64,000 nucleotides of DNA from Crossaster papposus. Its lineage: Eukaryota > Echinodermata > Asteroidea > Velatida > Solasteridae. The notes beneath the pieces were generated by a model. It saw only the letters and a program-made list of their open reading frames with translations, was not told where the DNA came from and did not search any database. The stretch lies in contig JBAIAA010000434.1 of the NCBI GenBank assembly GCA_037893245.1, positions 186,001 to 250,000 on the forward strand, read 5' to 3'. This document shows positions 19,121 to 52,460 of the stretch, one piece after another (position 1 is the stretch's first letter; each line of letters opens with the position of its first letter). The translations under genes were made by a program, and so were the position numbers.

Positions 19121-19604
19121 TTACATATTTCTTATGCACACTTCTTTCCCTTTACATATTTCTTATGCACACTTCTTTCCCTTTACATATTTCTTATGCA
19201 CACTTCTTTCCCTTTACATATTTCTTATGCACACTTCTTTCCCTTTACATATTTCTTATGCACACTTCTTTCCCTTTACATATTTCTTATGCACACTTCT
19301 TTCCCTTTACATATTTCTTATGCACACTTCTTTCCCTTTACATATTTCTTATGCACACTTCTTTCCCTTTACATATTTCTTATGCACACTTCTTTCCCTT
19401 TACATATTTCTTATGCACACTTCTTTCCCTTTACATATTTCTTATGCACACTTCTTTCCCTTTACATATTTCTTATGCACACTTCTTTCCCTTTACATAT
19501 TTCTTATGCACACTTCTTTCCCTTTACATATTTCTTATGCACACTTCTTTCCCTTTACATATTTCTTATGCACACTTCTTTCCCTTTACATATTTCTTAT
19601 GCAC

Positions 19605-19633
19605 ACTTCTTTCCCTTCTTTCCCTTTACATAT
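19605..19633 (+). other. Unit with an internal 9-bp tandem duplication
   Basis: TTCTTTCCC is present twice in succession before TTTACATAT, making this unit 9 bp longer than normal. The surrounding units are perfect. Confidence 0.85.
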
Positions 19634-22600
19634 TTCTTATGCACACTTCTTTCCCTTTACATATTTCTTATGCACACTTCTTTCCCTTTACATATTTCTT
19701 ATGCACACTTCTTTCCCTTTACATATTTCTTATGCACACTTCTTTCCCTTTACATATTTCTTATGCACACTTCTTTCCCTTTACATATTTCTTATGCACA
19801 CTTCTTTCCCTTTACATATTTCTTATGCACACTTCTTTCCCTTTACATATTTCTTATGCACACTTCTTTCCCTTTACATATTTCTTATGCACACTTCTTT
19901 CCCTTTACATATTTCTTATGCACACTTCTTTCCCTTTACATATTTCTTATGCACACTTCTTTCCCTTTACATATTTCTTATGCACACTTCTTTCCCTTTA
20001 CATATTTCTTATGCACACTTCTTTCCCTTTACATATTTCTTATGCACACTTCTTTCCCTTTACATATTTCTTATGCACACTTCTTTCCCTTTACATATTT
20101 CTTATGCACACTTCTTTCCCTTTACATATTTCTTATGCACACTTCTTTCCCTTTACATATTTCTTATGCACACTTCTTTCCCTTTACATATTTCTTATGC
20201 ACACTTCTTTCCCTTTACATATTTCTTATGCACACTTCTTTCCCTTTACATATTTCTTATGCACACTTCTTTCCCTTTACATATTTCTTATGCACACTTC
20301 TTTCCCTTTACATATTTCTTATGCACACTTCTTTCCCTTTACATATTTCTTATGCACACTTCTTTCCCTTTACATATTTCTTATGCACACTTCTTTCCCT
20401 TTACATATTTCTTATGCACACTTCTTTCCCTTTACATATTTCTTATGCACACTTCTTTCCCTTTACATATTTCTTATGCACACTTCTTTCCCTTTACATA
20501 TTTCTTATGCACACTTCTTTCCCTTTACATATTTCTTATGCACACTTCTTTCCCTTTACATATTTCTTATGCACACTTCTTTCCCTTTACATATTTCTTA
20601 TGCACACTTCTTTCCCTTTACATATTTCTTATGCACACTTCTTTCCCTTTACATATTTCTTATGCACACTTCTTTCCCTTTACATATTTCTTATGCACAC
20701 TTCTTTCCCTTTACATATTTCTTATGCACACTTCTTTCCCTTTACATATTTCTTATGCACACTTCTTTCCCTTTACATATTTCTTATGCACACTTCTTTC
20801 CCTTTACATATTTCTTATGCACACTTCTTTCCCTTTACATATTTCTTATGCACACTTCTTTCCCTTTACATATTTCTTATGCACACTTCTTTCCCTTTAC
20901 ATATTTCTTATGCACACTTCTTTCCCTTTACATATTTCTTATGCACACTTCTTTCCCTTTACATATTTCTTATGCACACTTCTTTCCCTTTACATATTTC
21001 TTATGCACACTTCTTTCCCTTTACATATTTCTTATGCACACTTCTTTCCCTTTACATATTTCTTATGCACACTTCTTTCCCTTTACATATTTCTTATGCA
21101 CACTTCTTTCCCTTTACATATTTCTTATGCACACTTCTTTCCCTTTACATATTTCTTATGCACACTTCTTTCCCTTTACATATTTCTTATGCACACTTCT
21201 TTCCCTTTACATATTTCTTATGCACACTTCTTTCCCTTTACATATTTCTTATGCACACTTCTTTCCCTTTACATATTTCTTATGCACACTTCTTTCCCTT
21301 TACATATTTCTTATGCACACTTCTTTCCCTTTACATATTTCTTATGCACACTTCTTTCCCTTTACATATTTCTTATGCACACTTCTTTCCCTTTACATAT
21401 TTCTTATGCACACTTCTTTCCCTTTACATATTTCTTATGCACACTTCTTTCCCTTTACATATTTCTTATGCACACTTCTTTCCCTTTACATATTTCTTAT
21501 GCACACTTCTTTCCCTTTACATATTTCTTATGCACACTTCTTTCCCTTTACATATTTCTTATGCACACTTCTTTCCCTTTACATATTTCTTATGCACACT
21601 TCTTTCCCTTTACATATTTCTTATGCACACTTCTTTCCCTTTACATATTTCTTATGCACACTTCTTTCCCTTTACATATTTCTTATGCACACTTCTTTCC
21701 CTTTACATATTTCTTATGCACACTTCTTTCCCTTTACATATTTCTTATGCACACTTCTTTCCCTTTACATATTTCTTATGCACACTTCTTTCCCTTTACA
21801 TATTTCTTATGCACACTTCTTTCCCTTTACATATTTCTTATGCACACTTCTTTCCCTTTACATATTTCTTATGCACACTTCTTTCCCTTTACATATTTCT
21901 TATGCACACTTCTTTCCCTTTACATATTTCTTATGCACACTTCTTTCCCTTTACATATTTCTTATGCACACTTCTTTCCCTTTACATATTTCTTATGCAC
22001 ACTTCTTTCCCTTTACATATTTCTTATGCACACTTCTTTCCCTTTACATATTTCTTATGCACACTTCTTTCCCTTTACATATTTCTTATGCACACTTCTT
22101 TCCCTTTACATATTTCTTATGCACACTTCTTTCCCTTTACATATTTCTTATGCACACTTCTTTCCCTTTACATATTTCTTATGCACACTTCTTTCCCTTT
22201 ACATATTTCTTATGCACACTTCTTTCCCTTTACATATTTCTTATGCACACTTCTTTCCCTTTACATATTTCTTATGCACACTTCTTTCCCTTTACATATT
22301 TCTTATGCACACTTCTTTCCCTTTACATATTTCTTATGCACACTTCTTTCCCTTTACATATTTCTTATGCACACTTCTTTCCCTTTACATATTTCTTATG
22401 CACACTTCTTTCCCTTTACATATTTCTTATGCACACTTCTTTCCCTTTACATATTTCTTATGCACACTTCTTTCCCTTTACATATTTCTTATGCACACTT
22501 CTTTCCCTTTACATATTTCTTATGCACACTTCTTTCCCTTTACATATTTCTTATGCACACTTCTTTCCCTTTACATATTTCTTATGCACACTTCTTTCCC

Positions 22601-22640
22601 TTTACATATTTCTTATGCACACTTCTTTCCCTTTACATAT

Positions 22641-22664
22641 GCACACTTCTTTCCCTTTACATAT
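22641..22664 (+). other. Unit shortened by 7 bp
   Basis: ACATAT is followed directly by GCACAC, so the segment TTCTTAT is missing. The gap lies between two TAT triplets, as expected for a slippage deletion or a miscalled read. Confidence 0.85.
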
Positions 22665-22788
22665 TTCTTATGCACACTTCTTTCCCTTTACATATTTCTT
22701 ATGCACACTTCTTTCCCTTTACATATTTCTTATGCACACTTCTTTCCCTTTACATATTTCTTATGCACACTTCTTTCCCTTTACATAT

Positions 22789-22816
22789 TTCTTATGCACA
22801 CTTCTTTCCCTTCATT
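22789..22816 (+). other. Unit shortened by 3 bp with altered end
   Basis: This unit is 28 bp and ends CCCTTCATT instead of CCCTTTACATAT. It lies four perfect units after the previous irregular unit, so two errors or mutations cluster within 180 bp. Confidence 0.82.
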
Positions 22817-25800
22817 TTCTTATGCACACTTCTTTCCCTTTACATATTTCTTATGCACACTTCTTTCCCTTTACATATTTCTTATGCACACTTCTTTCCC
22901 TTTACATATTTCTTATGCACACTTCTTTCCCTTTACATATTTCTTATGCACACTTCTTTCCCTTTACATATTTCTTATGCACACTTCTTTCCCTTTACAT
23001 ATTTCTTATGCACACTTCTTTCCCTTTACATATTTCTTATGCACACTTCTTTCCCTTTACATATTTCTTATGCACACTTCTTTCCCTTTACATATTTCTT
23101 ATGCACACTTCTTTCCCTTTACATATTTCTTATGCACACTTCTTTCCCTTTACATATTTCTTATGCACACTTCTTTCCCTTTACATATTTCTTATGCACA
23201 CTTCTTTCCCTTTACATATTTCTTATGCACACTTCTTTCCCTTTACATATTTCTTATGCACACTTCTTTCCCTTTACATATTTCTTATGCACACTTCTTT
23301 CCCTTTACATATTTCTTATGCACACTTCTTTCCCTTTACATATTTCTTATGCACACTTCTTTCCCTTTACATATTTCTTATGCACACTTCTTTCCCTTTA
23401 CATATTTCTTATGCACACTTCTTTCCCTTTACATATTTCTTATGCACACTTCTTTCCCTTTACATATTTCTTATGCACACTTCTTTCCCTTTACATATTT
23501 CTTATGCACACTTCTTTCCCTTTACATATTTCTTATGCACACTTCTTTCCCTTTACATATTTCTTATGCACACTTCTTTCCCTTTACATATTTCTTATGC
23601 ACACTTCTTTCCCTTTACATATTTCTTATGCACACTTCTTTCCCTTTACATATTTCTTATGCACACTTCTTTCCCTTTACATATTTCTTATGCACACTTC
23701 TTTCCCTTTACATATTTCTTATGCACACTTCTTTCCCTTTACATATTTCTTATGCACACTTCTTTCCCTTTACATATTTCTTATGCACACTTCTTTCCCT
23801 TTACATATTTCTTATGCACACTTCTTTCCCTTTACATATTTCTTATGCACACTTCTTTCCCTTTACATATTTCTTATGCACACTTCTTTCCCTTTACATA
23901 TTTCTTATGCACACTTCTTTCCCTTTACATATTTCTTATGCACACTTCTTTCCCTTTACATATTTCTTATGCACACTTCTTTCCCTTTACATATTTCTTA
24001 TGCACACTTCTTTCCCTTTACATATTTCTTATGCACACTTCTTTCCCTTTACATATTTCTTATGCACACTTCTTTCCCTTTACATATTTCTTATGCACAC
24101 TTCTTTCCCTTTACATATTTCTTATGCACACTTCTTTCCCTTTACATATTTCTTATGCACACTTCTTTCCCTTTACATATTTCTTATGCACACTTCTTTC
24201 CCTTTACATATTTCTTATGCACACTTCTTTCCCTTTACATATTTCTTATGCACACTTCTTTCCCTTTACATATTTCTTATGCACACTTCTTTCCCTTTAC
24301 ATATTTCTTATGCACACTTCTTTCCCTTTACATATTTCTTATGCACACTTCTTTCCCTTTACATATTTCTTATGCACACTTCTTTCCCTTTACATATTTC
24401 TTATGCACACTTCTTTCCCTTTACATATTTCTTATGCACACTTCTTTCCCTTTACATATTTCTTATGCACACTTCTTTCCCTTTACATATTTCTTATGCA
24501 CACTTCTTTCCCTTTACATATTTCTTATGCACACTTCTTTCCCTTTACATATTTCTTATGCACACTTCTTTCCCTTTACATATTTCTTATGCACACTTCT
24601 TTCCCTTTACATATTTCTTATGCACACTTCTTTCCCTTTACATATTTCTTATGCACACTTCTTTCCCTTTACATATTTCTTATGCACACTTCTTTCCCTT
24701 TACATATTTCTTATGCACACTTCTTTCCCTTTACATATTTCTTATGCACACTTCTTTCCCTTTACATATTTCTTATGCACACTTCTTTCCCTTTACATAT
24801 TTCTTATGCACACTTCTTTCCCTTTACATATTTCTTATGCACACTTCTTTCCCTTTACATATTTCTTATGCACACTTCTTTCCCTTTACATATTTCTTAT
24901 GCACACTTCTTTCCCTTTACATATTTCTTATGCACACTTCTTTCCCTTTACATATTTCTTATGCACACTTCTTTCCCTTTACATATTTCTTATGCACACT
25001 TCTTTCCCTTTACATATTTCTTATGCACACTTCTTTCCCTTTACATATTTCTTATGCACACTTCTTTCCCTTTACATATTTCTTATGCACACTTCTTTCC
25101 CTTTACATATTTCTTATGCACACTTCTTTCCCTTTACATATTTCTTATGCACACTTCTTTCCCTTTACATATTTCTTATGCACACTTCTTTCCCTTTACA
25201 TATTTCTTATGCACACTTCTTTCCCTTTACATATTTCTTATGCACACTTCTTTCCCTTTACATATTTCTTATGCACACTTCTTTCCCTTTACATATTTCT
25301 TATGCACACTTCTTTCCCTTTACATATTTCTTATGCACACTTCTTTCCCTTTACATATTTCTTATGCACACTTCTTTCCCTTTACATATTTCTTATGCAC
25401 ACTTCTTTCCCTTTACATATTTCTTATGCACACTTCTTTCCCTTTACATATTTCTTATGCACACTTCTTTCCCTTTACATATTTCTTATGCACACTTCTT
25501 TCCCTTTACATATTTCTTATGCACACTTCTTTCCCTTTACATATTTCTTATGCACACTTCTTTCCCTTTACATATTTCTTATGCACACTTCTTTCCCTTT
25601 ACATATTTCTTATGCACACTTCTTTCCCTTTACATATTTCTTATGCACACTTCTTTCCCTTTACATATTTCTTATGCACACTTCTTTCCCTTTACATATT
25701 TCTTATGCACACTTCTTTCCCTTTACATATTTCTTATGCACACTTCTTTCCCTTTACATATTTCTTATGCACACTTCTTTCCCTTTACATATTTCTTATG

Positions 25801-28800
25801 CACACTTCTTTCCCTTTACATATTTCTTATGCACACTTCTTTCCCTTTACATATTTCTTATGCACACTTCTTTCCCTTTACATATTTCTTATGCACACTT
25901 CTTTCCCTTTACATATTTCTTATGCACACTTCTTTCCCTTTACATATTTCTTATGCACACTTCTTTCCCTTTACATATTTCTTATGCACACTTCTTTCCC
26001 TTTACATATTTCTTATGCACACTTCTTTCCCTTTACATATTTCTTATGCACACTTCTTTCCCTTTACATATTTCTTATGCACACTTCTTTCCCTTTACAT
26101 ATTTCTTATGCACACTTCTTTCCCTTTACATATTTCTTATGCACACTTCTTTCCCTTTACATATTTCTTATGCACACTTCTTTCCCTTTACATATTTCTT
26201 ATGCACACTTCTTTCCCTTTACATATTTCTTATGCACACTTCTTTCCCTTTACATATTTCTTATGCACACTTCTTTCCCTTTACATATTTCTTATGCACA
26301 CTTCTTTCCCTTTACATATTTCTTATGCACACTTCTTTCCCTTTACATATTTCTTATGCACACTTCTTTCCCTTTACATATTTCTTATGCACACTTCTTT
26401 CCCTTTACATATTTCTTATGCACACTTCTTTCCCTTTACATATTTCTTATGCACACTTCTTTCCCTTTACATATTTCTTATGCACACTTCTTTCCCTTTA
26501 CATATTTCTTATGCACACTTCTTTCCCTTTACATATTTCTTATGCACACTTCTTTCCCTTTACATATTTCTTATGCACACTTCTTTCCCTTTACATATTT
26601 CTTATGCACACTTCTTTCCCTTTACATATTTCTTATGCACACTTCTTTCCCTTTACATATTTCTTATGCACACTTCTTTCCCTTTACATATTTCTTATGC
26701 ACACTTCTTTCCCTTTACATATTTCTTATGCACACTTCTTTCCCTTTACATATTTCTTATGCACACTTCTTTCCCTTTACATATTTCTTATGCACACTTC
26801 TTTCCCTTTACATATTTCTTATGCACACTTCTTTCCCTTTACATATTTCTTATGCACACTTCTTTCCCTTTACATATTTCTTATGCACACTTCTTTCCCT
26901 TTACATATTTCTTATGCACACTTCTTTCCCTTTACATATTTCTTATGCACACTTCTTTCCCTTTACATATTTCTTATGCACACTTCTTTCCCTTTACATA
27001 TTTCTTATGCACACTTCTTTCCCTTTACATATTTCTTATGCACACTTCTTTCCCTTTACATATTTCTTATGCACACTTCTTTCCCTTTACATATTTCTTA
27101 TGCACACTTCTTTCCCTTTACATATTTCTTATGCACACTTCTTTCCCTTTACATATTTCTTATGCACACTTCTTTCCCTTTACATATTTCTTATGCACAC
27201 TTCTTTCCCTTTACATATTTCTTATGCACACTTCTTTCCCTTTACATATTTCTTATGCACACTTCTTTCCCTTTACATATTTCTTATGCACACTTCTTTC
27301 CCTTTACATATTTCTTATGCACACTTCTTTCCCTTTACATATTTCTTATGCACACTTCTTTCCCTTTACATATTTCTTATGCACACTTCTTTCCCTTTAC
27401 ATATTTCTTATGCACACTTCTTTCCCTTTACATATTTCTTATGCACACTTCTTTCCCTTTACATATTTCTTATGCACACTTCTTTCCCTTTACATATTTC
27501 TTATGCACACTTCTTTCCCTTTACATATTTCTTATGCACACTTCTTTCCCTTTACATATTTCTTATGCACACTTCTTTCCCTTTACATATTTCTTATGCA
27601 CACTTCTTTCCCTTTACATATTTCTTATGCACACTTCTTTCCCTTTACATATTTCTTATGCACACTTCTTTCCCTTTACATATTTCTTATGCACACTTCT
27701 TTCCCTTTACATATTTCTTATGCACACTTCTTTCCCTTTACATATTTCTTATGCACACTTCTTTCCCTTTACATATTTCTTATGCACACTTCTTTCCCTT
27801 TACATATTTCTTATGCACACTTCTTTCCCTTTACATATTTCTTATGCACACTTCTTTCCCTTTACATATTTCTTATGCACACTTCTTTCCCTTTACATAT
27901 TTCTTATGCACACTTCTTTCCCTTTACATATTTCTTATGCACACTTCTTTCCCTTTACATATTTCTTATGCACACTTCTTTCCCTTTACATATTTCTTAT
28001 GCACACTTCTTTCCCTTTACATATTTCTTATGCACACTTCTTTCCCTTTACATATTTCTTATGCACACTTCTTTCCCTTTACATATTTCTTATGCACACT
28101 TCTTTCCCTTTACATATTTCTTATGCACACTTCTTTCCCTTTACATATTTCTTATGCACACTTCTTTCCCTTTACATATTTCTTATGCACACTTCTTTCC
28201 CTTTACATATTTCTTATGCACACTTCTTTCCCTTTACATATTTCTTATGCACACTTCTTTCCCTTTACATATTTCTTATGCACACTTCTTTCCCTTTACA
28301 TATTTCTTATGCACACTTCTTTCCCTTTACATATTTCTTATGCACACTTCTTTCCCTTTACATATTTCTTATGCACACTTCTTTCCCTTTACATATTTCT
28401 TATGCACACTTCTTTCCCTTTACATATTTCTTATGCACACTTCTTTCCCTTTACATATTTCTTATGCACACTTCTTTCCCTTTACATATTTCTTATGCAC
28501 ACTTCTTTCCCTTTACATATTTCTTATGCACACTTCTTTCCCTTTACATATTTCTTATGCACACTTCTTTCCCTTTACATATTTCTTATGCACACTTCTT
28601 TCCCTTTACATATTTCTTATGCACACTTCTTTCCCTTTACATATTTCTTATGCACACTTCTTTCCCTTTACATATTTCTTATGCACACTTCTTTCCCTTT
28701 ACATATTTCTTATGCACACTTCTTTCCCTTTACATATTTCTTATGCACACTTCTTTCCCTTTACATATTTCTTATGCACACTTCTTTCCCTTTACATATT

Positions 28801-31800
28801 TCTTATGCACACTTCTTTCCCTTTACATATTTCTTATGCACACTTCTTTCCCTTTACATATTTCTTATGCACACTTCTTTCCCTTTACATATTTCTTATG
28901 CACACTTCTTTCCCTTTACATATTTCTTATGCACACTTCTTTCCCTTTACATATTTCTTATGCACACTTCTTTCCCTTTACATATTTCTTATGCACACTT
29001 CTTTCCCTTTACATATTTCTTATGCACACTTCTTTCCCTTTACATATTTCTTATGCACACTTCTTTCCCTTTACATATTTCTTATGCACACTTCTTTCCC
29101 TTTACATATTTCTTATGCACACTTCTTTCCCTTTACATATTTCTTATGCACACTTCTTTCCCTTTACATATTTCTTATGCACACTTCTTTCCCTTTACAT
29201 ATTTCTTATGCACACTTCTTTCCCTTTACATATTTCTTATGCACACTTCTTTCCCTTTACATATTTCTTATGCACACTTCTTTCCCTTTACATATTTCTT
29301 ATGCACACTTCTTTCCCTTTACATATTTCTTATGCACACTTCTTTCCCTTTACATATTTCTTATGCACACTTCTTTCCCTTTACATATTTCTTATGCACA
29401 CTTCTTTCCCTTTACATATTTCTTATGCACACTTCTTTCCCTTTACATATTTCTTATGCACACTTCTTTCCCTTTACATATTTCTTATGCACACTTCTTT
29501 CCCTTTACATATTTCTTATGCACACTTCTTTCCCTTTACATATTTCTTATGCACACTTCTTTCCCTTTACATATTTCTTATGCACACTTCTTTCCCTTTA
29601 CATATTTCTTATGCACACTTCTTTCCCTTTACATATTTCTTATGCACACTTCTTTCCCTTTACATATTTCTTATGCACACTTCTTTCCCTTTACATATTT
29701 CTTATGCACACTTCTTTCCCTTTACATATTTCTTATGCACACTTCTTTCCCTTTACATATTTCTTATGCACACTTCTTTCCCTTTACATATTTCTTATGC
29801 ACACTTCTTTCCCTTTACATATTTCTTATGCACACTTCTTTCCCTTTACATATTTCTTATGCACACTTCTTTCCCTTTACATATTTCTTATGCACACTTC
29901 TTTCCCTTTACATATTTCTTATGCACACTTCTTTCCCTTTACATATTTCTTATGCACACTTCTTTCCCTTTACATATTTCTTATGCACACTTCTTTCCCT
30001 TTACATATTTCTTATGCACACTTCTTTCCCTTTACATATTTCTTATGCACACTTCTTTCCCTTTACATATTTCTTATGCACACTTCTTTCCCTTTACATA
30101 TTTCTTATGCACACTTCTTTCCCTTTACATATTTCTTATGCACACTTCTTTCCCTTTACATATTTCTTATGCACACTTCTTTCCCTTTACATATTTCTTA
30201 TGCACACTTCTTTCCCTTTACATATTTCTTATGCACACTTCTTTCCCTTTACATATTTCTTATGCACACTTCTTTCCCTTTACATATTTCTTATGCACAC
30301 TTCTTTCCCTTTACATATTTCTTATGCACACTTCTTTCCCTTTACATATTTCTTATGCACACTTCTTTCCCTTTACATATTTCTTATGCACACTTCTTTC
30401 CCTTTACATATTTCTTATGCACACTTCTTTCCCTTTACATATTTCTTATGCACACTTCTTTCCCTTTACATATTTCTTATGCACACTTCTTTCCCTTTAC
30501 ATATTTCTTATGCACACTTCTTTCCCTTTACATATTTCTTATGCACACTTCTTTCCCTTTACATATTTCTTATGCACACTTCTTTCCCTTTACATATTTC
30601 TTATGCACACTTCTTTCCCTTTACATATTTCTTATGCACACTTCTTTCCCTTTACATATTTCTTATGCACACTTCTTTCCCTTTACATATTTCTTATGCA
30701 CACTTCTTTCCCTTTACATATTTCTTATGCACACTTCTTTCCCTTTACATATTTCTTATGCACACTTCTTTCCCTTTACATATTTCTTATGCACACTTCT
30801 TTCCCTTTACATATTTCTTATGCACACTTCTTTCCCTTTACATATTTCTTATGCACACTTCTTTCCCTTTACATATTTCTTATGCACACTTCTTTCCCTT
30901 TACATATTTCTTATGCACACTTCTTTCCCTTTACATATTTCTTATGCACACTTCTTTCCCTTTACATATTTCTTATGCACACTTCTTTCCCTTTACATAT
31001 TTCTTATGCACACTTCTTTCCCTTTACATATTTCTTATGCACACTTCTTTCCCTTTACATATTTCTTATGCACACTTCTTTCCCTTTACATATTTCTTAT
31101 GCACACTTCTTTCCCTTTACATATTTCTTATGCACACTTCTTTCCCTTTACATATTTCTTATGCACACTTCTTTCCCTTTACATATTTCTTATGCACACT
31201 TCTTTCCCTTTACATATTTCTTATGCACACTTCTTTCCCTTTACATATTTCTTATGCACACTTCTTTCCCTTTACATATTTCTTATGCACACTTCTTTCC
31301 CTTTACATATTTCTTATGCACACTTCTTTCCCTTTACATATTTCTTATGCACACTTCTTTCCCTTTACATATTTCTTATGCACACTTCTTTCCCTTTACA
31401 TATTTCTTATGCACACTTCTTTCCCTTTACATATTTCTTATGCACACTTCTTTCCCTTTACATATTTCTTATGCACACTTCTTTCCCTTTACATATTTCT
31501 TATGCACACTTCTTTCCCTTTACATATTTCTTATGCACACTTCTTTCCCTTTACATATTTCTTATGCACACTTCTTTCCCTTTACATATTTCTTATGCAC
31601 ACTTCTTTCCCTTTACATATTTCTTATGCACACTTCTTTCCCTTTACATATTTCTTATGCACACTTCTTTCCCTTTACATATTTCTTATGCACACTTCTT
31701 TCCCTTTACATATTTCTTATGCACACTTCTTTCCCTTTACATATTTCTTATGCACACTTCTTTCCCTTTACATATTTCTTATGCACACTTCTTTCCCTTT

Positions 31801-33511: not shown

Positions 33512-33541
33512 TTACTCGAGGCTTGTTCCCACATCATTTAT
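33512..33541 (+). repeat. Damaged cassette, 30 bp
   Basis: This is a cassette that has lost one A, one G and GTGT relative to the 36-bp form. It begins TTACTCGAGG and ends CATCATTTAT, with no substitutions. It is the only cassette in the 29.9 kb between 17,855 and 47,754. The deletion-only pattern resembles uncorrected long-read sequence more than normal divergence, though real deletions cannot be excluded. Confidence 0.85.
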
Positions 33542-37137: not shown

Positions 37138-37173
37138 TTCTTATGCACTACTTCTCTCTTTCCCTTTACATAT
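37138..37173 (+). other. Unit lengthened by 5 bp
   Basis: This unit is 36 bp. GCACTACTTC replaces GCACACTTC and extra CTC bases precede TTTCCC. It is flanked by 116 and 339 perfect units. Confidence 0.85.
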
Positions 37174-40100
37174 TTCTTATGCACACTTCTTTCCCTTTAC
37201 ATATTTCTTATGCACACTTCTTTCCCTTTACATATTTCTTATGCACACTTCTTTCCCTTTACATATTTCTTATGCACACTTCTTTCCCTTTACATATTTC
37301 TTATGCACACTTCTTTCCCTTTACATATTTCTTATGCACACTTCTTTCCCTTTACATATTTCTTATGCACACTTCTTTCCCTTTACATATTTCTTATGCA
37401 CACTTCTTTCCCTTTACATATTTCTTATGCACACTTCTTTCCCTTTACATATTTCTTATGCACACTTCTTTCCCTTTACATATTTCTTATGCACACTTCT
37501 TTCCCTTTACATATTTCTTATGCACACTTCTTTCCCTTTACATATTTCTTATGCACACTTCTTTCCCTTTACATATTTCTTATGCACACTTCTTTCCCTT
37601 TACATATTTCTTATGCACACTTCTTTCCCTTTACATATTTCTTATGCACACTTCTTTCCCTTTACATATTTCTTATGCACACTTCTTTCCCTTTACATAT
37701 TTCTTATGCACACTTCTTTCCCTTTACATATTTCTTATGCACACTTCTTTCCCTTTACATATTTCTTATGCACACTTCTTTCCCTTTACATATTTCTTAT
37801 GCACACTTCTTTCCCTTTACATATTTCTTATGCACACTTCTTTCCCTTTACATATTTCTTATGCACACTTCTTTCCCTTTACATATTTCTTATGCACACT
37901 TCTTTCCCTTTACATATTTCTTATGCACACTTCTTTCCCTTTACATATTTCTTATGCACACTTCTTTCCCTTTACATATTTCTTATGCACACTTCTTTCC
38001 CTTTACATATTTCTTATGCACACTTCTTTCCCTTTACATATTTCTTATGCACACTTCTTTCCCTTTACATATTTCTTATGCACACTTCTTTCCCTTTACA
38101 TATTTCTTATGCACACTTCTTTCCCTTTACATATTTCTTATGCACACTTCTTTCCCTTTACATATTTCTTATGCACACTTCTTTCCCTTTACATATTTCT
38201 TATGCACACTTCTTTCCCTTTACATATTTCTTATGCACACTTCTTTCCCTTTACATATTTCTTATGCACACTTCTTTCCCTTTACATATTTCTTATGCAC
38301 ACTTCTTTCCCTTTACATATTTCTTATGCACACTTCTTTCCCTTTACATATTTCTTATGCACACTTCTTTCCCTTTACATATTTCTTATGCACACTTCTT
38401 TCCCTTTACATATTTCTTATGCACACTTCTTTCCCTTTACATATTTCTTATGCACACTTCTTTCCCTTTACATATTTCTTATGCACACTTCTTTCCCTTT
38501 ACATATTTCTTATGCACACTTCTTTCCCTTTACATATTTCTTATGCACACTTCTTTCCCTTTACATATTTCTTATGCACACTTCTTTCCCTTTACATATT
38601 TCTTATGCACACTTCTTTCCCTTTACATATTTCTTATGCACACTTCTTTCCCTTTACATATTTCTTATGCACACTTCTTTCCCTTTACATATTTCTTATG
38701 CACACTTCTTTCCCTTTACATATTTCTTATGCACACTTCTTTCCCTTTACATATTTCTTATGCACACTTCTTTCCCTTTACATATTTCTTATGCACACTT
38801 CTTTCCCTTTACATATTTCTTATGCACACTTCTTTCCCTTTACATATTTCTTATGCACACTTCTTTCCCTTTACATATTTCTTATGCACACTTCTTTCCC
38901 TTTACATATTTCTTATGCACACTTCTTTCCCTTTACATATTTCTTATGCACACTTCTTTCCCTTTACATATTTCTTATGCACACTTCTTTCCCTTTACAT
39001 ATTTCTTATGCACACTTCTTTCCCTTTACATATTTCTTATGCACACTTCTTTCCCTTTACATATTTCTTATGCACACTTCTTTCCCTTTACATATTTCTT
39101 ATGCACACTTCTTTCCCTTTACATATTTCTTATGCACACTTCTTTCCCTTTACATATTTCTTATGCACACTTCTTTCCCTTTACATATTTCTTATGCACA
39201 CTTCTTTCCCTTTACATATTTCTTATGCACACTTCTTTCCCTTTACATATTTCTTATGCACACTTCTTTCCCTTTACATATTTCTTATGCACACTTCTTT
39301 CCCTTTACATATTTCTTATGCACACTTCTTTCCCTTTACATATTTCTTATGCACACTTCTTTCCCTTTACATATTTCTTATGCACACTTCTTTCCCTTTA
39401 CATATTTCTTATGCACACTTCTTTCCCTTTACATATTTCTTATGCACACTTCTTTCCCTTTACATATTTCTTATGCACACTTCTTTCCCTTTACATATTT
39501 CTTATGCACACTTCTTTCCCTTTACATATTTCTTATGCACACTTCTTTCCCTTTACATATTTCTTATGCACACTTCTTTCCCTTTACATATTTCTTATGC
39601 ACACTTCTTTCCCTTTACATATTTCTTATGCACACTTCTTTCCCTTTACATATTTCTTATGCACACTTCTTTCCCTTTACATATTTCTTATGCACACTTC
39701 TTTCCCTTTACATATTTCTTATGCACACTTCTTTCCCTTTACATATTTCTTATGCACACTTCTTTCCCTTTACATATTTCTTATGCACACTTCTTTCCCT
39801 TTACATATTTCTTATGCACACTTCTTTCCCTTTACATATTTCTTATGCACACTTCTTTCCCTTTACATATTTCTTATGCACACTTCTTTCCCTTTACATA
39901 TTTCTTATGCACACTTCTTTCCCTTTACATATTTCTTATGCACACTTCTTTCCCTTTACATATTTCTTATGCACACTTCTTTCCCTTTACATATTTCTTA
40001 TGCACACTTCTTTCCCTTTACATATTTCTTATGCACACTTCTTTCCCTTTACATATTTCTTATGCACACTTCTTTCCCTTTACATATTTCTTATGCACAC

Positions 40101-43100
40101 TTCTTTCCCTTTACATATTTCTTATGCACACTTCTTTCCCTTTACATATTTCTTATGCACACTTCTTTCCCTTTACATATTTCTTATGCACACTTCTTTC
40201 CCTTTACATATTTCTTATGCACACTTCTTTCCCTTTACATATTTCTTATGCACACTTCTTTCCCTTTACATATTTCTTATGCACACTTCTTTCCCTTTAC
40301 ATATTTCTTATGCACACTTCTTTCCCTTTACATATTTCTTATGCACACTTCTTTCCCTTTACATATTTCTTATGCACACTTCTTTCCCTTTACATATTTC
40401 TTATGCACACTTCTTTCCCTTTACATATTTCTTATGCACACTTCTTTCCCTTTACATATTTCTTATGCACACTTCTTTCCCTTTACATATTTCTTATGCA
40501 CACTTCTTTCCCTTTACATATTTCTTATGCACACTTCTTTCCCTTTACATATTTCTTATGCACACTTCTTTCCCTTTACATATTTCTTATGCACACTTCT
40601 TTCCCTTTACATATTTCTTATGCACACTTCTTTCCCTTTACATATTTCTTATGCACACTTCTTTCCCTTTACATATTTCTTATGCACACTTCTTTCCCTT
40701 TACATATTTCTTATGCACACTTCTTTCCCTTTACATATTTCTTATGCACACTTCTTTCCCTTTACATATTTCTTATGCACACTTCTTTCCCTTTACATAT
40801 TTCTTATGCACACTTCTTTCCCTTTACATATTTCTTATGCACACTTCTTTCCCTTTACATATTTCTTATGCACACTTCTTTCCCTTTACATATTTCTTAT
40901 GCACACTTCTTTCCCTTTACATATTTCTTATGCACACTTCTTTCCCTTTACATATTTCTTATGCACACTTCTTTCCCTTTACATATTTCTTATGCACACT
41001 TCTTTCCCTTTACATATTTCTTATGCACACTTCTTTCCCTTTACATATTTCTTATGCACACTTCTTTCCCTTTACATATTTCTTATGCACACTTCTTTCC
41101 CTTTACATATTTCTTATGCACACTTCTTTCCCTTTACATATTTCTTATGCACACTTCTTTCCCTTTACATATTTCTTATGCACACTTCTTTCCCTTTACA
41201 TATTTCTTATGCACACTTCTTTCCCTTTACATATTTCTTATGCACACTTCTTTCCCTTTACATATTTCTTATGCACACTTCTTTCCCTTTACATATTTCT
41301 TATGCACACTTCTTTCCCTTTACATATTTCTTATGCACACTTCTTTCCCTTTACATATTTCTTATGCACACTTCTTTCCCTTTACATATTTCTTATGCAC
41401 ACTTCTTTCCCTTTACATATTTCTTATGCACACTTCTTTCCCTTTACATATTTCTTATGCACACTTCTTTCCCTTTACATATTTCTTATGCACACTTCTT
41501 TCCCTTTACATATTTCTTATGCACACTTCTTTCCCTTTACATATTTCTTATGCACACTTCTTTCCCTTTACATATTTCTTATGCACACTTCTTTCCCTTT
41601 ACATATTTCTTATGCACACTTCTTTCCCTTTACATATTTCTTATGCACACTTCTTTCCCTTTACATATTTCTTATGCACACTTCTTTCCCTTTACATATT
41701 TCTTATGCACACTTCTTTCCCTTTACATATTTCTTATGCACACTTCTTTCCCTTTACATATTTCTTATGCACACTTCTTTCCCTTTACATATTTCTTATG
41801 CACACTTCTTTCCCTTTACATATTTCTTATGCACACTTCTTTCCCTTTACATATTTCTTATGCACACTTCTTTCCCTTTACATATTTCTTATGCACACTT
41901 CTTTCCCTTTACATATTTCTTATGCACACTTCTTTCCCTTTACATATTTCTTATGCACACTTCTTTCCCTTTACATATTTCTTATGCACACTTCTTTCCC
42001 TTTACATATTTCTTATGCACACTTCTTTCCCTTTACATATTTCTTATGCACACTTCTTTCCCTTTACATATTTCTTATGCACACTTCTTTCCCTTTACAT
42101 ATTTCTTATGCACACTTCTTTCCCTTTACATATTTCTTATGCACACTTCTTTCCCTTTACATATTTCTTATGCACACTTCTTTCCCTTTACATATTTCTT
42201 ATGCACACTTCTTTCCCTTTACATATTTCTTATGCACACTTCTTTCCCTTTACATATTTCTTATGCACACTTCTTTCCCTTTACATATTTCTTATGCACA
42301 CTTCTTTCCCTTTACATATTTCTTATGCACACTTCTTTCCCTTTACATATTTCTTATGCACACTTCTTTCCCTTTACATATTTCTTATGCACACTTCTTT
42401 CCCTTTACATATTTCTTATGCACACTTCTTTCCCTTTACATATTTCTTATGCACACTTCTTTCCCTTTACATATTTCTTATGCACACTTCTTTCCCTTTA
42501 CATATTTCTTATGCACACTTCTTTCCCTTTACATATTTCTTATGCACACTTCTTTCCCTTTACATATTTCTTATGCACACTTCTTTCCCTTTACATATTT
42601 CTTATGCACACTTCTTTCCCTTTACATATTTCTTATGCACACTTCTTTCCCTTTACATATTTCTTATGCACACTTCTTTCCCTTTACATATTTCTTATGC
42701 ACACTTCTTTCCCTTTACATATTTCTTATGCACACTTCTTTCCCTTTACATATTTCTTATGCACACTTCTTTCCCTTTACATATTTCTTATGCACACTTC
42801 TTTCCCTTTACATATTTCTTATGCACACTTCTTTCCCTTTACATATTTCTTATGCACACTTCTTTCCCTTTACATATTTCTTATGCACACTTCTTTCCCT
42901 TTACATATTTCTTATGCACACTTCTTTCCCTTTACATATTTCTTATGCACACTTCTTTCCCTTTACATATTTCTTATGCACACTTCTTTCCCTTTACATA
43001 TTTCTTATGCACACTTCTTTCCCTTTACATATTTCTTATGCACACTTCTTTCCCTTTACATATTTCTTATGCACACTTCTTTCCCTTTACATATTTCTTA

Positions 43101-46100
43101 TGCACACTTCTTTCCCTTTACATATTTCTTATGCACACTTCTTTCCCTTTACATATTTCTTATGCACACTTCTTTCCCTTTACATATTTCTTATGCACAC
43201 TTCTTTCCCTTTACATATTTCTTATGCACACTTCTTTCCCTTTACATATTTCTTATGCACACTTCTTTCCCTTTACATATTTCTTATGCACACTTCTTTC
43301 CCTTTACATATTTCTTATGCACACTTCTTTCCCTTTACATATTTCTTATGCACACTTCTTTCCCTTTACATATTTCTTATGCACACTTCTTTCCCTTTAC
43401 ATATTTCTTATGCACACTTCTTTCCCTTTACATATTTCTTATGCACACTTCTTTCCCTTTACATATTTCTTATGCACACTTCTTTCCCTTTACATATTTC
43501 TTATGCACACTTCTTTCCCTTTACATATTTCTTATGCACACTTCTTTCCCTTTACATATTTCTTATGCACACTTCTTTCCCTTTACATATTTCTTATGCA
43601 CACTTCTTTCCCTTTACATATTTCTTATGCACACTTCTTTCCCTTTACATATTTCTTATGCACACTTCTTTCCCTTTACATATTTCTTATGCACACTTCT
43701 TTCCCTTTACATATTTCTTATGCACACTTCTTTCCCTTTACATATTTCTTATGCACACTTCTTTCCCTTTACATATTTCTTATGCACACTTCTTTCCCTT
43801 TACATATTTCTTATGCACACTTCTTTCCCTTTACATATTTCTTATGCACACTTCTTTCCCTTTACATATTTCTTATGCACACTTCTTTCCCTTTACATAT
43901 TTCTTATGCACACTTCTTTCCCTTTACATATTTCTTATGCACACTTCTTTCCCTTTACATATTTCTTATGCACACTTCTTTCCCTTTACATATTTCTTAT
44001 GCACACTTCTTTCCCTTTACATATTTCTTATGCACACTTCTTTCCCTTTACATATTTCTTATGCACACTTCTTTCCCTTTACATATTTCTTATGCACACT
44101 TCTTTCCCTTTACATATTTCTTATGCACACTTCTTTCCCTTTACATATTTCTTATGCACACTTCTTTCCCTTTACATATTTCTTATGCACACTTCTTTCC
44201 CTTTACATATTTCTTATGCACACTTCTTTCCCTTTACATATTTCTTATGCACACTTCTTTCCCTTTACATATTTCTTATGCACACTTCTTTCCCTTTACA
44301 TATTTCTTATGCACACTTCTTTCCCTTTACATATTTCTTATGCACACTTCTTTCCCTTTACATATTTCTTATGCACACTTCTTTCCCTTTACATATTTCT
44401 TATGCACACTTCTTTCCCTTTACATATTTCTTATGCACACTTCTTTCCCTTTACATATTTCTTATGCACACTTCTTTCCCTTTACATATTTCTTATGCAC
44501 ACTTCTTTCCCTTTACATATTTCTTATGCACACTTCTTTCCCTTTACATATTTCTTATGCACACTTCTTTCCCTTTACATATTTCTTATGCACACTTCTT
44601 TCCCTTTACATATTTCTTATGCACACTTCTTTCCCTTTACATATTTCTTATGCACACTTCTTTCCCTTTACATATTTCTTATGCACACTTCTTTCCCTTT
44701 ACATATTTCTTATGCACACTTCTTTCCCTTTACATATTTCTTATGCACACTTCTTTCCCTTTACATATTTCTTATGCACACTTCTTTCCCTTTACATATT
44801 TCTTATGCACACTTCTTTCCCTTTACATATTTCTTATGCACACTTCTTTCCCTTTACATATTTCTTATGCACACTTCTTTCCCTTTACATATTTCTTATG
44901 CACACTTCTTTCCCTTTACATATTTCTTATGCACACTTCTTTCCCTTTACATATTTCTTATGCACACTTCTTTCCCTTTACATATTTCTTATGCACACTT
45001 CTTTCCCTTTACATATTTCTTATGCACACTTCTTTCCCTTTACATATTTCTTATGCACACTTCTTTCCCTTTACATATTTCTTATGCACACTTCTTTCCC
45101 TTTACATATTTCTTATGCACACTTCTTTCCCTTTACATATTTCTTATGCACACTTCTTTCCCTTTACATATTTCTTATGCACACTTCTTTCCCTTTACAT
45201 ATTTCTTATGCACACTTCTTTCCCTTTACATATTTCTTATGCACACTTCTTTCCCTTTACATATTTCTTATGCACACTTCTTTCCCTTTACATATTTCTT
45301 ATGCACACTTCTTTCCCTTTACATATTTCTTATGCACACTTCTTTCCCTTTACATATTTCTTATGCACACTTCTTTCCCTTTACATATTTCTTATGCACA
45401 CTTCTTTCCCTTTACATATTTCTTATGCACACTTCTTTCCCTTTACATATTTCTTATGCACACTTCTTTCCCTTTACATATTTCTTATGCACACTTCTTT
45501 CCCTTTACATATTTCTTATGCACACTTCTTTCCCTTTACATATTTCTTATGCACACTTCTTTCCCTTTACATATTTCTTATGCACACTTCTTTCCCTTTA
45601 CATATTTCTTATGCACACTTCTTTCCCTTTACATATTTCTTATGCACACTTCTTTCCCTTTACATATTTCTTATGCACACTTCTTTCCCTTTACATATTT
45701 CTTATGCACACTTCTTTCCCTTTACATATTTCTTATGCACACTTCTTTCCCTTTACATATTTCTTATGCACACTTCTTTCCCTTTACATATTTCTTATGC
45801 ACACTTCTTTCCCTTTACATATTTCTTATGCACACTTCTTTCCCTTTACATATTTCTTATGCACACTTCTTTCCCTTTACATATTTCTTATGCACACTTC
45901 TTTCCCTTTACATATTTCTTATGCACACTTCTTTCCCTTTACATATTTCTTATGCACACTTCTTTCCCTTTACATATTTCTTATGCACACTTCTTTCCCT
46001 TTACATATTTCTTATGCACACTTCTTTCCCTTTACATATTTCTTATGCACACTTCTTTCCCTTTACATATTTCTTATGCACACTTCTTTCCCTTTACATA

Positions 46101-47682
46101 TTTCTTATGCACACTTCTTTCCCTTTACATATTTCTTATGCACACTTCTTTCCCTTTACATATTTCTTATGCACACTTCTTTCCCTTTACATATTTCTTA
46201 TGCACACTTCTTTCCCTTTACATATTTCTTATGCACACTTCTTTCCCTTTACATATTTCTTATGCACACTTCTTTCCCTTTACATATTTCTTATGCACAC
46301 TTCTTTCCCTTTACATATTTCTTATGCACACTTCTTTCCCTTTACATATTTCTTATGCACACTTCTTTCCCTTTACATATTTCTTATGCACACTTCTTTC
46401 CCTTTACATATTTCTTATGCACACTTCTTTCCCTTTACATATTTCTTATGCACACTTCTTTCCCTTTACATATTTCTTATGCACACTTCTTTCCCTTTAC
46501 ATATTTCTTATGCACACTTCTTTCCCTTTACATATTTCTTATGCACACTTCTTTCCCTTTACATATTTCTTATGCACACTTCTTTCCCTTTACATATTTC
46601 TTATGCACACTTCTTTCCCTTTACATATTTCTTATGCACACTTCTTTCCCTTTACATATTTCTTATGCACACTTCTTTCCCTTTACATATTTCTTATGCA
46701 CACTTCTTTCCCTTTACATATTTCTTATGCACACTTCTTTCCCTTTACATATTTCTTATGCACACTTCTTTCCCTTTACATATTTCTTATGCACACTTCT
46801 TTCCCTTTACATATTTCTTATGCACACTTCTTTCCCTTTACATATTTCTTATGCACACTTCTTTCCCTTTACATATTTCTTATGCACACTTCTTTCCCTT
46901 TACATATTTCTTATGCACACTTCTTTCCCTTTACATATTTCTTATGCACACTTCTTTCCCTTTACATATTTCTTATGCACACTTCTTTCCCTTTACATAT
47001 TTCTTATGCACACTTCTTTCCCTTTACATATTTCTTATGCACACTTCTTTCCCTTTACATATTTCTTATGCACACTTCTTTCCCTTTACATATTTCTTAT
47101 GCACACTTCTTTCCCTTTACATATTTCTTATGCACACTTCTTTCCCTTTACATATTTCTTATGCACACTTCTTTCCCTTTACATATTTCTTATGCACACT
47201 TCTTTCCCTTTACATATTTCTTATGCACACTTCTTTCCCTTTACATATTTCTTATGCACACTTCTTTCCCTTTACATATTTCTTATGCACACTTCTTTCC
47301 CTTTACATATTTCTTATGCACACTTCTTTCCCTTTACATATTTCTTATGCACACTTCTTTCCCTTTACATATTTCTTATGCACACTTCTTTCCCTTTACA
47401 TATTTCTTATGCACACTTCTTTCCCTTTACATATTTCTTATGCACACTTCTTTCCCTTTACATATTTCTTATGCACACTTCTTTCCCTTTACATATTTCT
47501 TATGCACACTTCTTTCCCTTTACATATTTCTTATGCACACTTCTTTCCCTTTACATATTTCTTATGCACACTTCTTTCCCTTTACATATTTCTTATGCAC
47601 ACTTCTTTCCCTTTACATATTTCTTATGCACACTTCTTTCCCTTTACATATTTCTTATGCACACTTCTTTCCCTTTACATAT
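37174..47682 (+). repeat. Second longest run of identical units (339 copies)
   Basis: The run is 10,509 bp, exactly 339 units of 31 bp. It lies between a 36-bp irregular unit at 37,138-37,173 and the irregular cluster starting at 47,683. No substitution was seen. Confidence 0.9.
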
Positions 47683-47809
47683 TTCTTATGCACACTTCTT
47701 TCTATTGCCCTTTCTTACATATTTATTATGCACACTTCTTTCCCTTTACATATTACTTAGGGCTTGTTCCACTTCATATTTTTATGCACACTTCTTTCCC
47801 TTTACATAT
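47683..47809 (+). repeat. Irregular cluster with a damaged cassette
   Basis: A 40-bp unit (47,683-47,722) with scattered insertions (TTCTATTGCCC, TTTCTTACAT) is followed by a unit starting TTATTATG. Next comes a badly altered cassette (about 47,754-47,780: starts TACTTAGGGC, then TTCCACTTCATA) that lacks the CTCGAG palindrome. A unit with a shortened start follows. Perfect units flank it on both sides. Confidence 0.82.
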
Positions 47810-50010
47810 TTCTTATGCACACTTCTTTCCCTTTACATATTTCTTATGCACACTTCTTTCCCTTTACATATTTCTTATGCACACTTCTTTCCCTTTACAT
47901 ATTTCTTATGCACACTTCTTTCCCTTTACATATTTCTTATGCACACTTCTTTCCCTTTACATATTTCTTATGCACACTTCTTTCCCTTTACATATTTCTT
48001 ATGCACACTTCTTTCCCTTTACATATTTCTTATGCACACTTCTTTCCCTTTACATATTTCTTATGCACACTTCTTTCCCTTTACATATTTCTTATGCACA
48101 CTTCTTTCCCTTTACATATTTCTTATGCACACTTCTTTCCCTTTACATATTTCTTATGCACACTTCTTTCCCTTTACATATTTCTTATGCACACTTCTTT
48201 CCCTTTACATATTTCTTATGCACACTTCTTTCCCTTTACATATTTCTTATGCACACTTCTTTCCCTTTACATATTTCTTATGCACACTTCTTTCCCTTTA
48301 CATATTTCTTATGCACACTTCTTTCCCTTTACATATTTCTTATGCACACTTCTTTCCCTTTACATATTTCTTATGCACACTTCTTTCCCTTTACATATTT
48401 CTTATGCACACTTCTTTCCCTTTACATATTTCTTATGCACACTTCTTTCCCTTTACATATTTCTTATGCACACTTCTTTCCCTTTACATATTTCTTATGC
48501 ACACTTCTTTCCCTTTACATATTTCTTATGCACACTTCTTTCCCTTTACATATTTCTTATGCACACTTCTTTCCCTTTACATATTTCTTATGCACACTTC
48601 TTTCCCTTTACATATTTCTTATGCACACTTCTTTCCCTTTACATATTTCTTATGCACACTTCTTTCCCTTTACATATTTCTTATGCACACTTCTTTCCCT
48701 TTACATATTTCTTATGCACACTTCTTTCCCTTTACATATTTCTTATGCACACTTCTTTCCCTTTACATATTTCTTATGCACACTTCTTTCCCTTTACATA
48801 TTTCTTATGCACACTTCTTTCCCTTTACATATTTCTTATGCACACTTCTTTCCCTTTACATATTTCTTATGCACACTTCTTTCCCTTTACATATTTCTTA
48901 TGCACACTTCTTTCCCTTTACATATTTCTTATGCACACTTCTTTCCCTTTACATATTTCTTATGCACACTTCTTTCCCTTTACATATTTCTTATGCACAC
49001 TTCTTTCCCTTTACATATTTCTTATGCACACTTCTTTCCCTTTACATATTTCTTATGCACACTTCTTTCCCTTTACATATTTCTTATGCACACTTCTTTC
49101 CCTTTACATATTTCTTATGCACACTTCTTTCCCTTTACATATTTCTTATGCACACTTCTTTCCCTTTACATATTTCTTATGCACACTTCTTTCCCTTTAC
49201 ATATTTCTTATGCACACTTCTTTCCCTTTACATATTTCTTATGCACACTTCTTTCCCTTTACATATTTCTTATGCACACTTCTTTCCCTTTACATATTTC
49301 TTATGCACACTTCTTTCCCTTTACATATTTCTTATGCACACTTCTTTCCCTTTACATATTTCTTATGCACACTTCTTTCCCTTTACATATTTCTTATGCA
49401 CACTTCTTTCCCTTTACATATTTCTTATGCACACTTCTTTCCCTTTACATATTTCTTATGCACACTTCTTTCCCTTTACATATTTCTTATGCACACTTCT
49501 TTCCCTTTACATATTTCTTATGCACACTTCTTTCCCTTTACATATTTCTTATGCACACTTCTTTCCCTTTACATATTTCTTATGCACACTTCTTTCCCTT
49601 TACATATTTCTTATGCACACTTCTTTCCCTTTACATATTTCTTATGCACACTTCTTTCCCTTTACATATTTCTTATGCACACTTCTTTCCCTTTACATAT
49701 TTCTTATGCACACTTCTTTCCCTTTACATATTTCTTATGCACACTTCTTTCCCTTTACATATTTCTTATGCACACTTCTTTCCCTTTACATATTTCTTAT
49801 GCACACTTCTTTCCCTTTACATATTTCTTATGCACACTTCTTTCCCTTTACATATTTCTTATGCACACTTCTTTCCCTTTACATATTTCTTATGCACACT
49901 TCTTTCCCTTTACATATTTCTTATGCACACTTCTTTCCCTTTACATATTTCTTATGCACACTTCTTTCCCTTTACATATTTCTTATGCACACTTCTTTCC
50001 CTTTACATAT

Positions 50011-50031
50011 TTCTTATGCACACTTCTTTAT
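50011..50031 (+). other. Unit shortened by 10 bp
   Basis: The unit is 21 bp. CACTTCTTT runs straight into ATTTCTTATG, so the CCCTTTACAT segment is missing. Confidence 0.85.
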
Positions 50032-50527
50032 TTCTTATGCACACTTCTTTCCCTTTACATATTTCTTATGCACACTTCTTTCCCTTTACATATTTCTTAT
50101 GCACACTTCTTTCCCTTTACATATTTCTTATGCACACTTCTTTCCCTTTACATATTTCTTATGCACACTTCTTTCCCTTTACATATTTCTTATGCACACT
50201 TCTTTCCCTTTACATATTTCTTATGCACACTTCTTTCCCTTTACATATTTCTTATGCACACTTCTTTCCCTTTACATATTTCTTATGCACACTTCTTTCC
50301 CTTTACATATTTCTTATGCACACTTCTTTCCCTTTACATATTTCTTATGCACACTTCTTTCCCTTTACATATTTCTTATGCACACTTCTTTCCCTTTACA
50401 TATTTCTTATGCACACTTCTTTCCCTTTACATATTTCTTATGCACACTTCTTTCCCTTTACATATTTCTTATGCACACTTCTTTCCCTTTACATATTTCT
50501 TATGCACACTTCTTTCCCTTTACATAT

Positions 50528-50564
50528 TTAACTCGAGGGCTTGTTCCCACATCATGTCGTTTAT
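50528..50564 (+). repeat. Cassette with one inserted base
   Basis: This is a nearly intact cassette of 37 bp with an extra C giving CATGTCGTTTAT. It is the first recognisable full-length cassette after 17,855. Confidence 0.9.
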
Positions 50565-50800
50565 TTCTTATGCACACTTCTTTCCCTTTACATATTTCTT
50601 ATGCACACTTCTTTCCCTTTACATATTTCTTATGCACACTTCTTTCCCTTTACATATTTCTTATGCACACTTCTTTCCCTTTACATATTTCTTATGCACA
50701 CTTCTTTCCCTTTACATATTTCTTATGCACACTTCTTTCCCTTTACATATTTCTTATGCACACTTCTTTCCCTTTACATATTTCTTATGCACACTTCTTT

Positions 50801-51215
50801 CCCTTTACATATTTCTTATGCACACTCTTTCCCTTTACATAATTTCTTATGCACACTTCTTTCCCTTTACATATTTCTTATGCACACTTCTTCCCCTTTA
50901 CATATTTCTTATGCACACTTCTTTCCCTTTACATATTTCTTATGCACACTTCTTTCCCTTTACATATTTCTTATGCACACTTCTTTCCCTTTACATATTT
51001 CTTATGCACACTTCTTTCCCTTTACATATTTCTTATGCACACTTCTTTCCCTTTACATATTTCTTATGCACACTTCTTTCCCTTTACATATTTCTTATGC
51101 ACACTTCTTTCCTTTACATATTTCTTATGCACACTTCTTTCCCTTTACATATTTCTTATGCACACTTCTTTCCCTTTACATATTTCTTATGCCACACTTC
51201 TTTCCCTTTACATAT
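50801..51215 (+). other. Cluster of single-base indels in the array
   Basis: Five changes occur within about 400 bp: a missing T near 50,826 (CACACTCTTTCC), an extra A near 50,841 (ACATAATTTC), a C-for-T change near 50,893, a missing C near 51,113, and an extra C near 51,192 (ATGCCACAC). The indels cancel out, so the 50,528-52,425 cassette interval is 37 plus exactly 60 units. Confidence 0.82.
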
Positions 51216-52424
51216 TTCTTATGCACACTTCTTTCCCTTTACATATTTCTTATGCACACTTCTTTCCCTTTACATATTTCTTATGCACACTTCTTTCCCT
51301 TTACATATTTCTTATGCACACTTCTTTCCCTTTACATATTTCTTATGCACACTTCTTTCCCTTTACATATTTCTTATGCACACTTCTTTCCCTTTACATA
51401 TTTCTTATGCACACTTCTTTCCCTTTACATATTTCTTATGCACACTTCTTTCCCTTTACATATTTCTTATGCACACTTCTTTCCCTTTACATATTTCTTA
51501 TGCACACTTCTTTCCCTTTACATATTTCTTATGCACACTTCTTTCCCTTTACATATTTCTTATGCACACTTCTTTCCCTTTACATATTTCTTATGCACAC
51601 TTCTTTCCCTTTACATATTTCTTATGCACACTTCTTTCCCTTTACATATTTCTTATGCACACTTCTTTCCCTTTACATATTTCTTATGCACACTTCTTTC
51701 CCTTTACATATTTCTTATGCACACTTCTTTCCCTTTACATATTTCTTATGCACACTTCTTTCCCTTTACATATTTCTTATGCACACTTCTTTCCCTTTAC
51801 ATATTTCTTATGCACACTTCTTTCCCTTTACATATTTCTTATGCACACTTCTTTCCCTTTACATATTTCTTATGCACACTTCTTTCCCTTTACATATTTC
51901 TTATGCACACTTCTTTCCCTTTACATATTTCTTATGCACACTTCTTTCCCTTTACATATTTCTTATGCACACTTCTTTCCCTTTACATATTTCTTATGCA
52001 CACTTCTTTCCCTTTACATATTTCTTATGCACACTTCTTTCCCTTTACATATTTCTTATGCACACTTCTTTCCCTTTACATATTTCTTATGCACACTTCT
52101 TTCCCTTTACATATTTCTTATGCACACTTCTTTCCCTTTACATATTTCTTATGCACACTTCTTTCCCTTTACATATTTCTTATGCACACTTCTTTCCCTT
52201 TACATATTTCTTATGCACACTTCTTTCCCTTTACATATTTCTTATGCACACTTCTTTCCCTTTACATATTTCTTATGCACACTTCTTTCCCTTTACATAT
52301 TTCTTATGCACACTTCTTTCCCTTTACATATTTCTTATGCACACTTCTTTCCCTTTACATATTTCTTATGCACACTTCTTTCCCTTTACATATTTCTTAT
52401 GCACACTTATTTCCCTTTACATAT

Positions 52425-52460
52425 TTACCTCGAGGGCTTGTTCCCACATCATGTGTTTAT
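52425..52460 (+). repeat. Cassette, ACCTCGAG variant
   Basis: A 36-bp cassette starting TTACCTCGAG instead of TTAACTCGAG. This removes the TAA triplet and keeps the CTCGAG palindrome. Only this copy and the one at 53,980 have the change. The second unit after it starts TTTTTATG, also as at 53,980. Confidence 0.92.

Follow-up and report, generated by a model that had tools for sequence, protein, structure and literature searches.

A nearly invariant core in a 31-bp satellite array of Crossaster papposus: probably a variant-poor block overlaid by an averaged consensus

Does a long, nearly invariant stretch inside a satellite array record a recent amplification, or the averaging of its copies in a consensus sequence? 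This question is raised by a 64,000-nt window of the sea star Crossaster papposus (contig JBAIAA010000434.1, positions 186,001 to 250,000; the window is the whole stretch analysed, and all features below are given in window coordinates on its plus strand). Exact tiling and a dynamic-programming parse revealed that the window is one satellite array with units lying head-to-tail in a single orientation. The majority unit A (31 bp, TTCTTATGCACACTTCTTTCCCTTTACATAT) is present in about 2,000 copies across the window and is accompanied by a minority unit B (36 bp, TTAACTCGAGGGCTTGTTCCCACATCATGTGTTTAT); the parse counted 1,999 A-type and 61 B-type units, with one badly damaged B-like unit (47,754) scored as A. 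On balance we favour the reading that the core of this array really is rich in A and poor in B, while its fine sequence and its length derive from the averaging of noisy reads into a consensus. Because such a consensus is averaged over shifted copies, the length and copy number of the core, as well as its letters, are most likely estimates that should not be trusted.

The array comprises a left domain (1-17,753) and a right domain (52,394-64,000), both built of A and B units, the left one with recurrent substitutions and higher-order copies and the right one with a higher-order pair of its own, on either side of an interior of much lower divergence. Non-A units account for 151 of the 571 units in the left domain, 8 of 44 in a left transition (17,754-19,128), 16 of 1073 in the core (counted over 19,129-52,393) and 88 of 372 in the right domain, where one of the 88 is a single leftover base at 64,000. 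A two-change-point likelihood fit placed breaks at 19,129 and 50,528, with non-A rates passing from 25.9% to 1.1% and back to 21.5% (about 1% in the interior versus 22-26% in the flanks), and this fit together with the run lengths delimits an almost pure A core at 19,129-50,527. Exact runs of A in the core comprise 97 (19,634-22,640), 345 (22,817-33,511), 116 (33,542-37,137), 339 (37,174-47,682) and 71 units (47,810-50,010), and the longest run is 345 units in the core versus 13 in the left domain, 20 in the left transition and 17 in the right domain. The original prediction, which had counted runs of 345, 339, 116 and 96 identical units by eye, is confirmed by exact tiling, the figure of 96 being the 97-unit run with a 7-bp loss near 22.64 kb placed differently. 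At the flank rate of non-A units, and assuming independent units, the probability per start of a 345-unit run is about 10^-44; counting each distinct variant once raises it to about 10^-10.

Such long perfect runs, along with the near absence of B units from the core, favour an explanation by biology alone, in which a very recent burst took a single A unit, or else a block of pure A, to more than 1000 copies that were accurately assembled; the core indels (insertions and deletions) would then be genuine, newly arisen mutations and junctions. Layered expansion has been described as a model for satellite arrays (passages of PMC10910784), and several of the core irregularities are single gaps. 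The spectrum of private changes speaks against this explanation. Among unit sequences seen once, the ratio of substitutions to indels is 29:1 in the flanks versus 1:17 at 17,754-51,215 (Fisher p = 7.4e-11), the only private substitution of the interior lying at 50,893. When the 17 interior indel units were merged into 14 places, as two near 22.64 kb and three in an irregular knot at 47.7 kb adjoin, the ratio was 1:14 (p = 1.3e-9). The interior, in other words, does not carry the same kinds of mutation as the rest of the window in smaller number. A young block would be expected to do so, instead of showing 17 indels (14 merged) for one substitution: youth alone fails because a burst would lower all mutation classes together, whereas here substitutions vanish and indels appear. 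It also leaves unexplained the three deletions in the B unit at 33,512 and the fact that 4 of the 5 inner B units are damaged, and we consider it unlikely.

The earlier claim that core irregularities are almost all indels is thus upheld, with two adjustments. The switch to indel-type variation had been assigned to 19,121-52,400; the switch is real, but private indels span 17,754-51,215 and start 1.4 kb further left. The assertion that the core has no inherited substitutions is nearly true; one such substitution is retained at 47,725, as are three B or B-like units that are damaged. The substitution lies in an inherited-variant unit at 47,723 (TTATTATGC...), which has 17 copies in the flanks (5 left, 12 right), and the B or B-like units within 19,121-52,400 (33,512; 47,754; 50,528) all carry indels.

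The distribution of the private indels is informative as to their origin. Indels occur in 4 of 5 interior B units versus none of 57 flank B units (p = 9.0e-6) and 15 of 1112 other interior units (p = 3.0e-7), so that they are concentrated in units unlike the mode, as predicted for a consensus artefact of noisy reads. The flip in spectrum, taken alone, would also fit a core that mutates differently from the flanks, as when slippage-prone replication yields indels and not substitutions. Yet the flanks share unit and strand composition with the core while the right domain has no indels and the left a single indel unit seen once, and the indels favour B over some 1,100 other inner units; we regard such a mutational regime as very improbable. 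The core indels look like residual read error, as they are nearly all private, favour the inner B units and are somewhat clustered. With affine gaps, 15 of the 1073 core units hold 26 events between them (22 gaps and 4 substitutions), and six core units carry two or more events versus about 0.3 expected by hand calculation; two units, both B or B-like, have three or more gaps. A count with linear gap costs had given 40 events in the core, with six units holding at least three. It was discarded as inflated: a single 10-bp loss (50,011) accounts for five of the events and a single 7-bp loss for two, and another ten arose because the B-like unit at 47,754 was scored as A. A homopolymer signature was likewise left unused: 8 of 10 isolated single-base indels change the run length of one base or double a base, which is weak because about half of the unit bases already sit in such runs.

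Individual irregularities are few and can be followed from left to right. The left transition (17,754-19,128) contains the earliest private single-base indels (17,754; 17,948; 18,197; 18,849) plus a 30-bp unit at 17,887, and retains inherited variants, namely G at 18,849 and C>A at 19,067 and 19,098. An irregular span follows (19,594-22,816), with a 9-bp gain (19,594), the 7-bp loss (about 22,636-22,641) and a damaged 28-bp unit (22,789). Beyond the 345-unit run, the damaged B unit (33,512-33,541) is reduced from 36 to 30 bp by its three separate deletions, and an enlarged A unit (37,138-37,173) has 5 extra bases, corresponding to 2 to 4 insertion events according to how gaps are scored. The knot (47,683-47,809) joins a damaged A unit, the inherited-variant unit and the damaged B-like unit, and a 21-bp unit (50,011-50,031) reflects the single 10-bp loss. 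A right transition (50,528-51,215) begins with a B unit that has gained one base (50,528) and includes single-base changes at 50,813, 50,875, 51,092 and 51,184.

Three patterns accompany these irregularities. First, a 30-bp unit in which CCC is reduced to CC occurs at 17,887-17,916 and 51,092-51,121, one copy at each end of the indel zone and nowhere else in the window. Second, the C>A variant (CACTTATTTCCC) flanks the A-rich stretch at both sides (19,067-19,128 and 52,394-52,424), and it is found elsewhere in both flanks too. Third, the core irregularities come in pairs 2.2-3.6 kb apart (19.6/22.6, 33.5/37.1 and 47.7/50.0 kb), the pairs being separated by about 10.5-10.7 kb, which amounts to a loose 14-kb spacing. 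This spacing might reflect read lengths or junctions; as a measure of read or loop length we rejected it, as two and a half periods prove nothing.

Variation in the flanks is of a different character, and the claim that flank substitutions recur in higher-order copies holds. Left-domain copies recur at offsets of 4,782 and about 6,120-6,151 bp with roughly 98-100% identity over matching stretches, and the right domain has one such pair (60,891 and 63,370). Multi-unit blocks with shared variants were thus found in both flanks, which is where the search was made, the core having almost no variants. Within the left domain, at least 12 pairs share variant strings with four or more variants, and no variant string with three or more variants is common to the left and right domains. 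From 52,401 on (11.6 kb), the right domain shows 74 substitutions and no indels relative to A or B. Unit sequences seen once in the left domain are all substitutions except for one 26-bp unit at 11,772. That domain also has a recurrent 13-bp truncated unit (7 copies, each directly 3' of a B unit) and a recurrent 30-bp unit ending TTTATTAT (10 copies), and because they recur these indel units are probably real.

Could the core instead have been as varied as the flanks (about 2 B units per kb and many substitutions) before polishing, or repeat extension with the modal unit, erased that variation? The flip from substitutions to indels in unit sequences seen once would be in keeping with such erasure, and we probed it with simulated reads of 2.5 kb at 10% and 3% error, scoring placement as correct within one unit. 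All 120 of 120 reads from five flank regions were placed correctly, versus 2 of 24 from a pure-A core. At the left edge, 4 of 12 were correct at 10% error and 12 of 12 at 3%; around the 47.7-kb knot the figures were 11 of 12 and 12 of 12. Flank landmarks therefore suffice for noisy reads, which argues against the loss of flank-like variation by misplacement. Reads longer than 2.5 kb would each span more landmarks, and more variants should be kept with them.

We then forced misplacement by shifting reads up to 20 units in a pairwise pile-up polishing scheme (one seed per condition, with eight runs per density in a dilution series). In real left-domain sequence, 18 of 31 substitutions and 8 of 14 B units survived shifted polishing; in real right-domain sequence 25 of 42 and 8 of 13 survived, and 4 inserted and 11 deleted bases were added. 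Unshifted controls kept all flank substitutions (31/31 and 42/42) and all B units, and a 3-unit shift changed flank sequence little. A sparse synthetic array lost all 6 of its substitutions and its 2 B units under shifted polishing, with 3 deleted bases in 5.5 kb (one seed); in the unshifted control 5 of the 6 substitutions and the two B units were kept, with 4 deleted bases. In the dilution series, B units survived forced misplacement in 13/31, 1/14, 0/5 and 0/4 cases at 1, 0.5, 0.25 and 0.125 of flank density, and non-exact units fell from truth to consensus from about 116 to 57, 63 to 13.5, 18 to 5 and 11 to 4, respectively, after 15.7 units per eight runs had been subtracted as an edge baseline. 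At full flank density, forced misplacement thus strips about half of the variant units, in favour of erasure, although 13 of 31 B units remain. The leftover non-exact units at low density may be polishing error. Near-complete flattening occurred only when the simulated truth was at half flank density or less. With a polishing scheme based on MAFFT windows, B units fell from 16 to 0 and from 13 to 3, which would favour erasure; this scheme was noisy even without misplacement (for instance, 0 inserted bases in truth versus 61 in consensus) and was replaced by the pile-up.

With 3 B units in the core versus about 65 expected, erasure of a fully flank-like truth would require a process other than alignment, such as gap filling, and we judge it unlikely, if anything slightly more so than a burst that was accurately assembled. 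The suggestion of a consensus artefact in the original prediction stands insofar as the indels resemble residual read error, and gives way insofar as flank-like truth would survive simulated misplacement. Since flank-like variation survives in this way, the true core probably held fewer variants than the flanks, by a factor of perhaps two to four or more, before it was flattened.

The reading that we favour, an A-rich block overlaid by an averaged consensus, can be set out as a series of steps. At about 17.8-51.2 kb the true DNA would be a block much richer in plain A, with few B units or other landmarks. In such a landmark-poor block, long reads would fail to be registered to the right copy, as the simulated reads did. 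The consensus would then be averaged over shifted copies, so that rare substitutions are outvoted and A prevails as the modal unit, an outcome simulated for an already sparse array. At landmarks such as B units, too few reads would agree, and raw-read indels may stay. The interior may have been patched from noisier reads between more accurate flanks, which would fit the indel-free flanks beside an indel-type interior.

Several observations weigh against this reading. The affine recount leaves the evidence for clustering weaker, and the 9-bp gain (19,594), the 7-bp loss (about 22,640) and the 10-bp loss (50,011) are each a single gap; such single-gap irregularities could be real slippage products, and recurrent, probably real indel units are present in the left domain. 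When pure A was polished, 1-2 deleted bases per 5.5 kb remained; the runs of 339 and 345 units contain no such deletions, and the real consensus must therefore be deeper or differently made. Shifted reads removed B units from the sparse array and did not reproduce damaged ones. Finally, the error model of the simulations was a single invented one, rich in indels, and a simple pile-up stood in for a real assembler. A near-perfect block of roughly 1,000 31-bp units, stemming from a very recent amplification of B-free A units within an older higher-order array and with only the scattered indels as sequencing residue, is a possibility to which we give real, though lesser, weight.

Published cases offer partial parallels, and those of coverage loss and overcorrection count in favour of our reading. 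Passages of PMC9186530 and PMC9241371 describe loss of accurate-read coverage in GA- or TC-rich sequence, and the former reports that GA/TC-rich gaps in the T2T-CHM13 (telomere-to-telomere) assembly were filled from an assembly based on Oxford Nanopore Technologies (ONT) reads. The window is similar in being a pyrimidine-rich tandem repeat (unit A has a pyrimidine at 24 of 31 positions) with accurate-looking flanks and interior irregularities that are indels. Base composition of the flanks is nearly identical, so dropout of accurate reads alone would not single out the core. A further difference is that T2T-CHM13 was, by its own account, validated and polished. In a passage of PMC12016036, centromeric satellite arrays are named as prone to overcorrection during polishing, and a core without substitution variants that sits at the modal unit resembles such a product, although our simulation indicates that flank-like variation would not fully vanish. 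The layered expansion mentioned in PMC10910784 matches an interior that is uniform while its two sides are more varied and show higher-order structure; unlike a simple shortage of substitutions, however, the interior changes here are mostly indels.

A literature search with sequence strings found no paper describing this satellite, the nearest result being two papers with a single 14-base string in common and no relevance to it, and we make no wider claim that it is unpublished. Neither unit A nor 28 bases of unit B had an exact match in genome contig and viral contig collections. What blastn of 56-58 kb returned from phage and plasmid records was chance-like, with matches of 22 bases to three phage records and of 35 bases to one plasmid record. 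Going by its letters, unit A is free of stop codons in every plus-strand frame, so that exact runs are open for kilobases on that strand; the open strand of the core runs is a consequence of unit A and no evidence of a gene.

Homogeneous satellite cores serve to infer recent expansion, and a consensus that outvotes substitutions while keeping indels can mimic or exaggerate youth. Two markers, the private substitution-to-indel ratio and the damage to minority versus majority units, could flag such stretches from an assembly alone. For the array of C. papposus itself, biological interest is low unless the core block is real; if it is, the block would represent an unusually young amplification.

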